From positions 1 through 6,648 of the forward strand of contig JAFWKS010000272.1 of assembly GCA_017511325.1 (NCBI GenBank): a stretch of DNA of 6,648 nt. Reading direction: 5' to 3'. The notes under the pieces were generated by a model. That model made no database searches and was not told where the DNA came from. It was given only the letters and a program-made list of their open reading frames with translations. Made by a program: the position numbers and the translations under genes. The DNA comes from Erysipelotrichaceae bacterium. Its GTDB lineage: Bacteria > Bacillota_I > Bacilli_A > Erysipelotrichales > Erysipelotrichaceae. The first letter of the stretch is position 1. The number at the start of each line of letters is the position of its first letter. Shown here piece by piece: positions 1,291 to 6,558 of this stretch.

Positions 1291-2265
1291 ATGAAAAGAA
1301 TTGAAAATATTATAAATAATATCGACTATTCATATTATTACAACGACTATGAACCGATAAAAAGATTACTTTATGCAGCTAAGAAACTTGGCGATGTTTC
1401 CAAATATAATGGCCTAGTTTATTTATCTGAAAAAACAGAGGATAAACTTACCAATTATATGTTTCCTAATGGTCTTCAACACGACGGCTTAGATTATCTT
1501 TATGATTTTATATTTAAGCTTGAAAAAGAGGGAGCGTTGTTTGTAAATCGTACTAGCAGTGATTTATTATCGATCCGTTTTAGGAAAGATGTAGATTATC
1601 AGTTTCTTAATACACTAAACTATGAAGACCCCATCAGTTATGAACCGCTATTAAGAATTAATAGAAATGTAAGTATATTTGAATCCGGCCTGTATGGTGG
1701 TATTGGCAATGTTGAATTGACAGACCATGGCTATGAAAAAGTATATGAATACCTTAAAGAAAATGGTATCAACATTTATTCCTATAATAGGCAATGCTAT
1801 GGCTGTAAAAGAAATGCTCCGATATACACCTATTATCTGACCAGACAAATAAATCAATATCTTGGTGCTGAGTATCTATATCACATTGATCGGGAATTTC
1901 AGACAGTTGATAGAATCTGCTTAGGATATCTGGAGGAACTGGATAAACAGCTTGCAAAAAAGTATCGAACCATAAGGAAATGTTACTCCAGGACTATGAA
2001 AGAAGAGTATTATGCAAACTGTTGTGAACATTGTGATTGTTTTACCGGATATAACTTTATTGCGTTTTATAATGATGAATCTATACCTGATGATATCTTC
2101 ACCACCAAAGATTTTATTGTAGGAAAGATTGATATCGATGAAAGTATTTTAACGATAGATAAACTGAAGAGTTTGTATATTCCTAAAAAAGGAAGAAGCA
2201 AAAATACTGAGGAAGTTTATTCTTATACAAATAACAAGAACTTCGATGGAGGCATGAGTCTTTAA
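1291..2265 (+). CDS. Hypothetical protein with two CxxC knuckles, possible zinc-binding domain, 324 aa
   Basis: The family is not identified with certainty. The first two thirds (1-165) show no motif I can name. After it come C169-Y-G-C172 and, about 70 residues on, C244-C-E-H-C248-D-C250. The two CxxC pairs, followed by PIYTYYL and TGYNF respectively, suggest a zinc ribbon or treble-clef fold split by a helical insert. That layout is common in uncharacterised phage and mobile-element proteins. The frame is open from an ATG at 1243 that overlaps the previous gene. I chose 1291 because AAGG (1279-1282) lies 8 bases before it; the adjacent ATG at 1288 is equally possible. The C-terminus is basic then asparagine-rich. 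Its stop overlaps the next start (TAATG), so it is probably translationally coupled to the 78-aa gene. No transmembrane segment is seen. Confidence 0.75.
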   Translation: MKRIENIINNIDYSYYYNDYEPIKRLLYAAKKLGDVSKYNGLVYLSEKTEDKLTNYMFPNGLQHDGLDYLYDFIFKLEKEGALFVNRTSSDLLSIRFRKDVDYQFLNTLNYEDPISYEPLLRINRNVSIFESGLYGGIGNVELTDHGYEKVYEYLKENGINIYSYNRQCYGCKRNAPIYTYYLTRQINQYLGAEYLYHIDREFQTVDRICLGYLEELDKQLAKKYRTIRKCYSRTMKEEYYANCCEHCDCFTGYNFIAFYNDESIPDDIFTTKDFIVGKIDIDESILTIDKLKSLYIPKKGRSKNTEEVYSYTNNKNFDGGMSL

Positions 2266-2501
2266 TGAAAACCTACAAGGAAAAACTTGATGAAATCAAA
2301 AGAAAGCAAGAACTTCTGAAAGAAAAACAAAAGCAACTTATGAATCAATTCAATGAAGAAAAGCGAAAAACAACTCTTCGCAGACAATCTGAAATAGGTA
2401 AGATTCTTGAAGAAACAATTGAATGTGAAATTGAAGAAATTGAGTCATTGAAATCTTTCTTTGAAACTCATGCAGCAGAATTAAGGGAAACGCAGTTATA
2501 G
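2265..2501 (+). CDS. Small charged helical protein, possible mobilization accessory
   Basis: This 78-aa protein is almost entirely predicted helix. Residues 1-40 are a lysine/glutamate coiled coil (KLDEIKRKQELLKEKQKQLM), then RRQSEIGKILEETI, then an acidic helical tail. Small coiled-coil proteins with an R-rich turn followed by a 'LIxIG' type helix are often encoded next to MobA/MobL-type relaxases (for example the DUF3847 and TraD-like groups), and some help load the relaxase at oriT. The resemblance here is in layout and not proven by sequence. The start overlaps the previous stop (TAATG). GGAGG at 2248-2252 is 12 bases away, long for direct initiation but adequate with coupling. It directly precedes the candidate oriT, which strengthens the accessory idea. 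Confidence 0.6.
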   Translation: MKTYKEKLDEIKRKQELLKEKQKQLMNQFNEEKRKTTLRRQSEIGKILEETIECEIEEIESLKSFFETHAAELRETQL

Positions 2502-2524: not shown

Positions 2525-2572
2525 CATGTGCACTTAGGACAGACAATCTTCCTTCGTCGATTCTCCGTCCTA
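2525..2572 (-). other. Candidate MOBQ-type origin of transfer (oriT) with nic site
   Basis: Read on the minus strand, TAGGACGGA (2572-2564), a mismatch, AATC, a 10-base loop, GATT, a mismatch and TCTGTCCTA (2543-2535) form an interrupted 14-bp stem containing one G-T pair. The right arm runs directly into TAAGTGCACATG (2536-2525). RSF1010/pIP501-type origins have the same order: an inverted repeat immediately 5' of TAAGTGCG|CCCT or a close variant. By alignment the nick would fall between the A at 2529 and the C at 2528 of the minus strand. The site lies just before a MobA/MobL-family relaxase. With this polarity the relaxase gene would enter the recipient last. TTGACA at 2521-2526 on the plus strand overlaps the nic region and may be the -35 of the relaxase promoter. 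Confidence 0.7.
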
Positions 2573-2627: not shown

Positions 2628-4016
2628 ATGTATCATTTACAATTTAAAAGCCTTCTTAGAGAAAAGGGAAGATCATGCATTCAATATGCTGCGTATATAT
2701 CTGGAAGTGTATTGAAAGATAATCGTACCGGTATAATACATAATCATCTTTCTAAAGATGAAGTTTGTAATTCAATGATCTATCTTCCGGAAAACGCTCC
2801 TATTTCGTTAAAGAACGAATTAGCTATAGCTTCAAAAAACGCAGACACACTTAATAAGTTTAGAGAGAAATTGTGGAACTCATTAGAAGAAAGAGAAAAG
2901 AATACTCATTGTCTTTTAGGCAAATGTTTGGATATTGCTTATCCATATGAGTTTGATGAAACTGATAGGAAAGTCTGCCGAGACCAGATAATAAAAATCT
3001 TAACTGATAAAGGTTACGCGGTTGATATCGCTGATCACTTAAAAGAAAACAATCCTCATATGCAAGCTTTAATATCGGCAAGAACGATGGATCCTGAAAA
3101 AACCTGGGCAGATATCAAAGAAATAAAAGGATATTTATGTAGAAATCATTATGGCTCAAGAAGAATCTTCAGGAGTATCAAAGATCTTAAAGAGTATAAC
3201 AAAGACGCCAAATATGATTTCCTTAAATATTCAAGAATTCCGGTAATAGATAAAAAGACAGGCAAGCAGAAAATATCGAAGAAAAAGAATGAACGCTTAT
3301 GGCAAAGAAAATCAATTTCAATCAATCCTATTACCAGCAAAGAATTCTTATTAAACCTTAGAAAATCATGGGAAGAGATTGCCAATGAGAGATTACCTGA
3401 AGGTTCAAGAATTTCTTGCAAGAGTTATATGGATCTTGGCATTAATAAAATACCGCAAATATATGAAGGCTATTGGGCTAGAAAACTAGGTCCTGATTCT
3501 GATCGAGTTCAATATAATATAGCAATAAAAGAAGCAAATGAGCAACTTGAACAGTTTCAAGAACTATATGATTCTTTGGAAGATGAATATAACGAATTAT
3601 ATGATGAACAGTTTAACAGTGATGATATCAGCACAGATGCAGCTATTGATCTATTACTTCACAACGATGATGATTCCTGGTTTAAAGATTTAAAAGAAGA
3701 AATTACCGAAATGGAGAATTGGGGATCAGATGATTTTACTTTCTGGAAGAATACAATTGATAAAAACGAATACTGGCTGGAACACACAGATTATGGTGAC
3801 AATAAGAATTATTTTGAACATCACGGGTTTAATTCGGCTGGGTTAATCGATGCAGTAAGTGGCGTTTGTACATACCTAAGAAATAATAACTATAAGGATT
3901 TTAAACAGAATAACCATAGGCATATCTCACTATCCGGTTTAAGCAAAAGACAAAGAGAAATTGAAGAAGAAATTGAAGAATATTTAAAAGAAATTTCAAG
4001 CACCTATTCGTATTAG
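2628..4016 (+). CDS. MobA/MobL-family (MOBQ) conjugative relaxase with HUQ active-site variant
   Basis: Relaxases nick oriT and carry the strand covalently on a tyrosine into the recipient. The 462-aa protein follows the MobA/MobL pattern from its first residues. MYHLQFK and GRSCIQYAAYISGSVL contain the expected catalytic Tyr23. IYLPENAP (51-58) follows, then AYPYEFD, DIADH (133-137) and NPHMQ (142-146). These align with the family's DIAIH and NPHxH, so His137 and His144 are kept while the third ligand is Gln146. LRKSWEEIANERL (244-256) and LGINKIPQIYEG (270-281) match the usual end of the domain. Residues about 295-365 are an acidic coiled coil, and 366-462 is an unrecognised tail ending in a charged helix (SKRQREIEEEIEEYLK). 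The ATG start matches the family's first residues, but no good ribosome binding site precedes it. It is shorter than RSF1010 MobA, with no primase domain. Confidence 0.88.
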   Translation: MYHLQFKSLLREKGRSCIQYAAYISGSVLKDNRTGIIHNHLSKDEVCNSMIYLPENAPISLKNELAIASKNADTLNKFREKLWNSLEEREKNTHCLLGKCLDIAYPYEFDETDRKVCRDQIIKILTDKGYAVDIADHLKENNPHMQALISARTMDPEKTWADIKEIKGYLCRNHYGSRRIFRSIKDLKEYNKDAKYDFLKYSRIPVIDKKTGKQKISKKKNERLWQRKSISINPITSKEFLLNLRKSWEEIANERLPEGSRISCKSYMDLGINKIPQIYEGYWARKLGPDSDRVQYNIAIKEANEQLEQFQELYDSLEDEYNELYDEQFNSDDISTDAAIDLLLHNDDDSWFKDLKEEITEMENWGSDDFTFWKNTIDKNEYWLEHTDYGDNKNYFEHHGFNSAGLIDAVSGVCTYLRNNNYKDFKQNNHRHISLSGLSKRQREIEEEIEEYLKEISSTYSY

Positions 4017-4378: not shown

Positions 4379-5512
4379 TTGAATAAAGACCCTTTTAAAG
4401 AGTATATACAAGAATCTGAACCAGATAAACGTGATAAAGGATATGCCTGGCATACTGCAATCGGCTTACAGGCTGTTGATGGTTTAAAAACATCAGAGTA
4501 TTTAGCTGATACGGCTATTCGAAATATTAAAGGCGAGATCTCAATTGATGAGGCTAATAAACTTCTTGAATCATATTATGAAGAAAACTCTTCTCGTGAA
4601 TCAGGAGATCGCACAGAAGAGGCTGATAAAGTCAGTGCAAGGATTGCAAAACTTTTATCAGAAAAAGCCTTCAGTTTCACTCCAAACGAATATCTGTCTA
4701 TTCATAAAAAACTGTTTACTGGTATTTTTAATCATGCCGGTCAGATAAGAAATTACAATATTACAAAAAAGGAATGGGTACTGAATGGAGCTACTGTAAT
4801 ATATGGAAGCGCCAGCGAACTGTCAGCTACCCTTGATTATGATTTTCTTCAAGAACGTCAATATTCATATCGTAATAGATCTATGGATGAAATAATTCAT
4901 CATCTTGCCTTATTTGTTTCCAGGCTGTGGCAGATTCACGTATTTAGCGAAGGAAACACCAGAACTACGGCGGTATTCTTCATAAAATATCTCCGCGCCC
5001 TTGGTTTTGATGCTACAAATGACATTTTTGCTGAAAACGCTTGGTATTTCAGAAATGCTCTTGTGAGGGCAAATTATAACGACATCACGAACGGTATTAC
5101 TGAAACTACCGAATATCTTGAGCTGTTTTTAAGAAACCTTTTATTGAATGAAAACCATTCCTTGCATAATCGAACATTACATATCAGTAATACCTTTAAA
5201 GAAAACGAAAAACCGGACATTGGAACTGAAAAACCGGACATTGGAACTGAAAAACAGGACATTGAAACTGAAAAACCGGACATTGAGAGAATAAAACCGT
5301 ACATTGAAAAGTCATTCCGGTCTAAAACTGCGGAAAATATCATAAAACTGTACCAGGAATTATCAAATCAAACGGTTTTTGGTCGAAGCGATGTAATGAA
5401 AATACTGGGCCTGAAACACTCTCGAGCATCTGGCTTGTTAAATGACATGTTAAGCAACAAGATCATTGAACCTGTTTCTGGATATGGAAAAGGAAAATAT
5501 CGATTCAGATGA
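4379..5512 (+). CDS. fic: Fic-family (filamentation induced by cAMP) protein with winged-helix C-terminus
   Basis: Fic enzymes usually transfer AMP from ATP onto hydroxyl side chains of target proteins. Some bacterial Fic toxins modify DNA gyrase and topoisomerase IV. In this 377-aa protein residues 22-70 (TAIGLQAVDGL, then NIKGEISIDEANKLL) resemble the inhibitory VbhA-type antitoxin segment, with VDG where the inhibitory motif has EG. The Fic core spans about 85-255, with KKEWVLNGATVIYGS as a flap-like stretch. The active motif is H187-V-F-S-E-G-N-T-R195, against the usual HPFxxGNGR; His, Phe, Gly, Asn and Arg are kept, and GNTR is known in other Fic proteins. Residues 277-311 are a tandem repeat linker. 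Residues 315-377 (FGRSDVMKILGLKHSRAS, then GKGKYRFR) form a winged helix. It begins at TTG with its own promoter. It may be an addiction or regulatory module, or an effector carried with the mobilization genes. Confidence 0.92.
   Translation: MNKDPFKEYIQESEPDKRDKGYAWHTAIGLQAVDGLKTSEYLADTAIRNIKGEISIDEANKLLESYYEENSSRESGDRTEEADKVSARIAKLLSEKAFSFTPNEYLSIHKKLFTGIFNHAGQIRNYNITKKEWVLNGATVIYGSASELSATLDYDFLQERQYSYRNRSMDEIIHHLALFVSRLWQIHVFSEGNTRTTAVFFIKYLRALGFDATNDIFAENAWYFRNALVRANYNDITNGITETTEYLELFLRNLLLNENHSLHNRTLHISNTFKENEKPDIGTEKPDIGTEKQDIETEKPDIERIKPYIEKSFRSKTAENIIKLYQELSNQTVFGRSDVMKILGLKHSRASGLLNDMLSNKIIEPVSGYGKGKYRFR
5207..5311 (+). repeat. 21-bp tandem repeat (five units) inside the fic linker
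   Basis: Units start at 5207, 5228, 5249, 5270 and 5291. The first two are identical (GAAAAACCGGACATTGGAAC plus T), the third and fourth differ at a few bases, and the fifth is degenerate. Each encodes a seven-residue step (EKPDIGT, EKPDIGT, EKQDIET, EKPDIER, IKPYIEK) between the Fic core and the winged helix. Because the unit is a multiple of three, gain or loss of units changes only linker length. Confidence 0.93.
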
Positions 5513-5707: not shown

Positions 5708-5756
5708 AAAGGAGGAGAAGAAAAATGGACTACTACAGGCAGATCATGCTTTTTAA
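5682..5756 (+). CDS. Possible 24-codon leader peptide overlapping the recombinase start
   Basis: ATG at 5682 opens MQVKLSYKKKEEKKNGLLQA and four more residues, ending with TAA inside the recombinase gene in a different frame. AAGGAG at 5664-5669 is 12 bases upstream, too far for strong initiation. If translated, its lysine-rich codons would move ribosomes across the recombinase ribosome binding site and start. Coding is doubtful; the overlap makes a chance ORF likely. Confidence 0.2.
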   Translation: MQVKLSYKKKEEKKNGLLQADHAF

Positions 5757-6558
5757 GTGCGAACTTGAACTAAATGAGAAAAGTGAAGCAACAATAAAGA
5801 AATATGTAAGAGATATTAAAGAATTCATTGATTATATCGGTAATGACGATCTAAGCAAAAATCTAGTTATATCTTATAAAAATATACTGGTAAATAAATA
5901 TAAACCCGCAACCGTTAATGTTAAAATAATCGCAATCAACAAATTTCTTAATCATATAGGTAAACAGGATTATAAAATCAGATTGTTAAAGATACAATCT
6001 CAGATATTTGCAAGCGAAGAAAAAGAACTTACAATCGCGGAGTATAAAAGGCTACTTGAAGCTGCCAAAGATGAAAGAATTGGGATCATCATTAAAACAA
6101 TAAGCTCTACCGGTATAAGAATATCAGAGTTAAGATACATTACTGTTGATGCAGTTAAAAAATGTAAGGCTGAAATTAATTTAAAAGGAAAGAATCGGAT
6201 AATTTTGATCCCAGTAACATTAAGAAGGGTTCTAATGGAGCATATAAATAAGAACAATATAAAAGAAGGTCCAATATTTATTACAAAAAACGGAAAACCG
6301 ATTGATCGTTCAAATTTGTGTAAAGAAATGAAACGGATATGTGATAAAGCGCATGTCGATAAATCGAAAGTATTTCCACATAACCTGAGGCATCTGTTTG
6401 CCAGAGTCTTCTATGAAGAAGAAAAAGATATTGTAAGGTTAGCAGATGTCTTAGGACATTCAAGCATAAACACAACAAGGATTTACACTATGGAGACAGG
6501 AAAAAAGCACTTTGAAGTTCTTGAAAGAGTGACTGGATTATTGATAGCAACAACATAA
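5725..6558 (+). CDS. Tyrosine recombinase / phage-type integrase (XerC/D-like size)
   Basis: This enzyme cuts and rejoins DNA at paired core sites through a phosphotyrosine, for integration, excision or multimer resolution. The 277-aa protein has an N-terminal SAM-like core-binding domain (about 1-90, with SEATIKKYVRDIKEFIDYI) and a catalytic domain from about 100. The full set is present: Arg132 (TGIRISELR), Lys156 (LKGKNR), His219 and Arg222 (PHNLRHLFA), His245 (LGHSSINTTRIY) and Tyr254. It lacks the extra N-terminal arm-binding domain of lambda- or Tn916-type integrases, so it is nearer in build to XerC/D and small element recombinases. AAGGAGG at 5709-5715 lies 9 bases before the ATG. It is the last gene in the window, a common place for an integrase at an element end. 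A phase-variation invertase is an alternative, but no clear invertible promoter is seen. Confidence 0.93.
   Translation: MDYYRQIMLFKCELELNEKSEATIKKYVRDIKEFIDYIGNDDLSKNLVISYKNILVNKYKPATVNVKIIAINKFLNHIGKQDYKIRLLKIQSQIFASEEKELTIAEYKRLLEAAKDERIGIIIKTISSTGIRISELRYITVDAVKKCKAEINLKGKNRIILIPVTLRRVLMEHINKNNIKEGPIFITKNGKPIDRSNLCKEMKRICDKAHVDKSKVFPHNLRHLFARVFYEEEKDIVRLADVLGHSSINTTRIYTMETGKKHFEVLERVTGLLIATT

Follow-up and report, generated by a model that had tools for sequence, protein, structure and literature searches.

A probable MOBQ-type transfer origin, diverged at the nick, beside a diverged relaxase gene in an Erysipelotrichaceae contig

The MobA relaxase of RSF1010 nicks its transfer origin (oriT) at TAAGTGCG/CCCT (PMC4814116), and a core consensus for MOBQ origins has been published as NWACCNNTAAGTGCGCCCTYNN (PMC3832669). 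The plasmid pIP501, whose relaxase TraA is labelled MOBQ3 (PMC6856555), is cut at GpC (PMC4981023); papers are cited here by PMC number. In a 6,648-bp stretch of DNA from an Erysipelotrichaceae bacterium (contig JAFWKS010000272.1, hereafter the window), a non-coding gap of 126 bp (2502–2627) very probably constitutes the site from which a mobilizable element starts its transfer, and on which the relaxase encoded next to it, on the downstream side, acts. The locus is, in all likelihood, a MOBQ-type oriT that has diverged at the nick and lies beside a diverged relaxase.

Hairpin, nic core and their recurrence in related elements

Read on the minus strand, a hairpin spanning 2572 to 2535 runs directly into TAAGTGCA, with CATG following the predicted nick. 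Inverted-repeat searches and folding place the 5′ arm of this hairpin at 2559–2572, a loop of 10 bases at 2549–2558 and the 3′ arm at 2535–2548, the final TA of which forms the first two bases of TAAGTGCA. The initial annotation of this DNA had described an interrupted inverted repeat, and the minus-strand fold agrees, with nine pairs, one mismatch, four pairs and the 10-base loop; one of the nine pairs in the longer stem is G.T. An inverted repeat stands immediately 5′ of the nic core, as expected of a MOBQ origin. The core itself, TAAGTGCA|C, occupies 2528–2536 on the minus strand, and comparison with the sites of relatives and with the RSF1010 nick site (PMC4814116) would place the nick at 2529/2528; this lies eight bases to the 3′ side of GTCC, which is the RSF1010 spacing. 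The register given for this nick in the initial annotation is correct, TAAGTGCAC spanning minus-strand positions 2536 to 2528. Compared with the core TAAGTGCG|CCCT, the window keeps TAAGTGC and the C at +1 and departs in its A at −1 and in CATG.

The motif by itself is not rare in the window, where TAAGTGC occurs twice against 0.52 copies expected; 15 of 200 shuffled versions had at least two. The second copy, as part of TAAGTGCG at 5754–5761 on the plus strand, falls within the start of the recombinase gene and has no hairpin evident by eye. For the gap, 20,000 dinucleotide-preserving shuffles were read on both strands, and among these 40,000 strand readings TAAGTGC appeared in 99 and TAAGTGC with an adjoining hairpin scoring at least 9 in just one; the observed score is 11. 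What supports an oriT is that hairpin and motif occur joined in this way and are conserved, not the stability of the hairpin.

Relatives of the relaxase gene were taken from 30 genome loci, from nine records chosen among the 2610 plasmid and 7 phage records that matched, and from further genomes. From these 99 loci we removed 27 that were duplicates or had no tblastn match, and five in which upstream DNA was lacking, leaving 67. A site was counted where a hairpin scoring at least 6 was followed directly by [T/C]AAGTGCG on the minus strand upstream of the relaxase gene. Hairpin and [T/C]AAGTGCG|C are present in 49/67 relatives, on the same strand as in the window and 72–339 bp from the relaxase start (median 178 bp; 91 bp in the window). 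The plus strand of the same upstream stretches gave 1/67, equally long coding stretches likewise gave 1/67, and mononucleotide-shuffled upstream stretches contained hairpin and motif in 0.2% (minus strand) and 0.4% (plus strand) of cases. It is this excess over the controls that carries the conservation argument. The initial annotation had proposed that the minus strand carries a MOBQ-like oriT and had stated that a lack of conservation of hairpin and TAAGTGC in homologous elements would refute this; the recurrence in relatives passes that test and supports the proposal well.

The 49 sites are not independent, comprising 37 distinct hairpin sequences. Across 12 distinct hairpins of 19 nt, seven of the eight pair positions vary in pair type; of the 96 cells, 91 hold Watson-Crick pairs and five G.T or T.G. 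Pairing was the criterion by which the hairpins had been found, and the information here therefore lies only in how much the letters vary. Upstream hairpins with outward-facing TAAGTGCG on both sides are seen in L020, L023, L056 and L058, and such two-faced oriTs would in principle allow a nick on one strand or the other. L005 has a two-faced site with an imperfect partner, TAAGTGCT, and the second copy in L003 is merely the palindromic core read from the opposite side.

The tetramer following the nick reads CCCT in 37 of the 49 sites, CACT in four, CCTT and CATT in three each, and CCGT and CCAT in one each. The C at +1 is constant and is kept in the window, and both the A at +2 and the T at +3 of the window occur among relatives. 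With CATT and CACT present in relatives, CATG was dropped as a decisive divergence.

The predicted MOBV oriT of pMOS2 contains AGTAAGTGCACAT, which is nearly the core of the window (PMC3832669). This shows that the window's core is not exclusive to its relaxase clade, and the likeness suggests either convergence or a nick preference common to several MOB families. Assignment of the window itself to MOBV was rejected; its relaxase belongs to PF03389, and MobM is a much poorer fit to it than are NES and MobA. A search of plasmid DNA with the gap gave just four records, with E values of 1 to 4 and no meaningful match among them, and the exact matches to CCTAAGTGCACATG in IMG/VR (24 stretches) were set aside as chance, the preceding 40 bases being by eye without a window-like hairpin.

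The relaxase, its clade and the neighbouring genes

The gap is bounded by an open reading frame (ORF) for 78 amino acids that ends at 2501 and by the relaxase ORF that starts at 2628, which confirms the 126 bases first assigned to it. The relaxase (2628–4016, plus strand) has 462 residues, of which approximately 1–267 form an N-terminal relaxase domain, and profile, sequence and fold matches identify it as MOBQ-type. Its match to MobA_MobL (PF03389) scores 131.9 bits, well over the cut-off of 26.7 (E 4e-38), and the closest solved folds to its relaxase domain are those of NES and R1162 MobA; the ORF is intact and the predicted domain folds confidently like NES. The putative nucleophile, Tyr23 (codon 2694–2696, plus strand), is invariant in A1 and aligns to the same place in the NES structure 4ht4, a position that we take to be catalytic and that is Phe in the crystal chain, presumably an inactive mutant.

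The metal-binding motif (3036–3065, plus strand) comprises His137 (3036–3038), His144 (3057–3059) and Gln146 (3063–3065), the last being histidine in relatives. In place of the three histidines of the H...HUH pattern, the window reads NPHMQ, with glutamine third (HUQ). NPH[ML]Q is found only in the window, P0002, P0034 and P0035, that is in four of the 108 proteins read, and the other 104 have histidine; the 108 include near-copies, and the pattern picked up neither L090, which is a broken copy, nor P0013, which by eye has PHAH. Circovirus replication proteins also have an HUQ motif, in which the glutamine helps to hold Mn (PMC9973303), and HUQ need therefore not mean a dead enzyme. The literature searched (titles and the starts of abstracts, with few subscription journals) yielded, among the matches listed, neither an HUQ relaxase of the MOBQ family nor a MOBQ oriT with TAAGTGCA|C.

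In a quick tree of 40 rows, the window relaxase (P0001) joins P0002–P0009, P0034 and P0035 in a group of 11 with full support in the Shimodaira–Hasegawa-like approximate likelihood ratio test (SH-aLRT), set apart from the 29 other rows by a branch of 1.2 changes per column. By this placement the relaxase belongs to a deep, separate MOBQ clade, within which all four HUQ proteins fall. P0002, P0034 and P0035 form a well supported set, differing by ∼25%. On this tree the origin of HUQ needs two changes, and its well supported branches force no more than one. The source of P0035 is labelled as a Bacteroidales metagenome-assembled genome; the DNA that encodes P0002–P0009, P0034 and P0035 was not found in the collections searched.

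These results bear on the proposal, made in the initial annotation, of a new subgroup of origin. The argument from CATG is weak, +2 and +3 being variable in relatives, and the relaxase, with its deep clade and HUQ motif, provides a better one; the proposal is only partly right, and for the DNA site it rests on a single origin. That an HUQ relaxase and an A|C cut (TAAGTGCA|C) evolved together, in a MOBQ clade undescribed in the literature searched, is conceivable and we think it rather unlikely, the pairing being drawn from one origin. If true, it would bear on the joint drift of metal ligands and scissile dinucleotide.

The 78-aa ORF (2265–2501, plus strand) probably encodes a relaxosome accessory protein resembling MobC or TraD. 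No Pfam family matches the protein itself at E below 0.01, and its best matches are small ORFs near the relaxase genes of relatives (best E 3.9e-7 in a search of 3934 ORF stretches from these relatives; positions were checked for L004, L056, L057, L069 and L084). The small ORFs of L069 and L004 resemble DUF3847, under the cut-off, that of L069 also TraD, above it, and the homologous ORF of L057 is annotated as a relaxasome subunit MobC, all of which makes a MobC-like relaxosome protein likely by an indirect route.

All listed genes of the window are on the plus strand. The ORF list and family profile searches give a ParB-like protein (125–868), two proteins for which no family profile reached its cut-off (909–1274 and 1288–2265), a Fic-domain protein (4379–5512) and a tyrosine recombinase (5725–6558). 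At the DNA level only three records in the plasmid collection match the window, at 64–70% identity and within the Fic and recombinase genes; the Fic part shares 64–68% identity with the Fic genes of records from Bacteroides finegoldii and Treponema saccharophilum. The Fic-domain protein has repeated 'EKPDIGT'-like units near 5206–5290, and several genes of the window are preceded by what appear by eye to be strong Shine-Dalgarno-like stretches, which would fit a Firmicute host. In IMG/VR, no relative could be confirmed with A1, the relaxase, the recombinase or P0034 as the query.

Proposed mechanism and alternative readings

If the gap is the oriT of the adjacent relaxase, the relaxase domain would bind the minus-strand hairpin (2572–2535) and Tyr23 would attack the single-stranded TAAGTGCA|C tail at 2529/2528, with His137, His144 and, presumably, Gln146 as the metal ligands. 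The relaxase would remain bound to the 5′ phosphate of C2528, and the minus strand would be exported 5′ end first with C2528 leading; the first genes to enter would be the one for the 78-aa protein and those that precede it, with the relaxase gene coming last. The pore would have to come from a conjugative helper, because no type IV secretion system (T4SS) gene was recognised within the 6.6-kb window.

Several findings weigh against this reading. The A at −1 and the G at +4 of the window are found in none of the 49 relatives, all of which have G and T, respectively, at these positions; the −1 base is the window's main oddity. No such site was found in the upstream DNA examined for 18/67 relatives, three of which had 216–337 bp upstream and one of which (L098) carries the motif beside a hairpin that narrowly misses the threshold. 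The conservation, moreover, extends across relaxases 23–33% identical, none of them from the window's own clade. Against the NCBIfam MobQ model (NF041496) the relaxase scores 96.6 bits, below the equivalog cut-off of 200, and by this model it would be a divergent relative and not an equivalog. Finally, the stability of the hairpin is modest, with z −0.55 for the whole gap (58/200 shuffles equally good) and z −2.46 for folding over 56 nt (3/200 as good); the whole-gap thermodynamics are not significant and are therefore not the main evidence for an oriT.

Taken as damage, these departures would make the gap a decayed oriT in which changes of G to A at −1, T to G at +4 and His to Gln in the relaxase have left a non-working mobilization module. 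This fits the otherwise strict constancy of both altered DNA positions and the histidine at the third metal ligand in 104/108 proteins; the relaxase ORF is, however, intact, a NES-like fold is predicted for its domain with confidence, the hairpin and TAAGTGC are still present, and HUQ is kept in three well supported proteins differing by ∼25%, so that it is not a fresh lesion. We consider decay improbable. A still smaller chance attaches to cleavage in trans by a different relaxase, with the gap as a mimic, or to cleavage elsewhere than at 2529/2528. In staphylococci, both relaxases that act in trans and mimics of oriT have been described (PMC10333310, PMC8136818) and the −1 base does depart from the consensus, but the relaxase gene lies only 91 bp away, within the 72–339 bp seen in relatives, and no second enzyme is needed.

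Least probable is that the inverted repeat serves to regulate the neighbouring genes or to terminate their transcription, and that TAAGTGC is there by accident: TTGACA does lie at 2521–2526, against the nick, and the tra promoter of pIP501, which overlaps oriT and is repressed by the relaxase, makes a double role possible (PMC4981023), but a scan of 2440–2680 found no terminator-like and no promoter-like site, no Rfam family reached its gathering threshold, and hairpin and motif recur upstream of the relaxase gene in 49/67 relatives. As a bare suggestion, TTGACA would fit an autoregulatory loop like that of pIP501, although the promoter scan found nothing.

Read as a transfer origin, the gap is the only candidate oriT found here for a deep MOBQ clade otherwise seen only as database proteins, and with a candidate available the mobilization of the clade's elements becomes testable. 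Searches for oriTs that use the strict string TAAGTGCGCCCT can miss sites.

Comparison with known systems

The oriT of RSF1010/R1162, acted on by MobA (MOBQ1), would share its nick position with the window (PMC4814116). The window differs in its −1 base, which is A and not G, in having CATG where RSF1010 has CCCT, in its loop of 10 and in reading HUQ instead of HUH. MobA_MobL is the only Pfam match of its relaxase above cut-off, with no sign of the primase part described for MobA (PMC4981023). By sequence and by fold, the closest solved relative of the window relaxase is the NES relaxase of pLW1043 (4ht4), from which it differs in having Gln for the third metal His. The oriT site of NES, which we take to be a hairpin followed by TAAGTGCG|CCCT, has a nick core from which that of the window has diverged.

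The pIP501 oriT with TraA has inverted repeats, as the window does, and a cut just before the relaxase gene (PMC4981023), as proposed for the window. That plasmid is conjugative, whereas no T4SS gene was recognised in the window, and the window's cut would fall between A and C. The nick string of pIP501 is presumably TAAGTGCGCCCT.

Further counterparts are the MobQ plasmids of gut Firmicutes, such as pRUMAL04 from Ruminococcus albus and a plasmid of Mediterraneibacter gnavus. Their relaxases are only ∼30% identical to that of the window, they have G at −1, and their MobC-like gene is divergent whereas that of the window is co-directional. Like the window, however, they have a hairpin on the minus strand that leads into the core, in their case TAAGTGCG|C, with the relaxase gene downstream and a small MobC-like ORF nearby.
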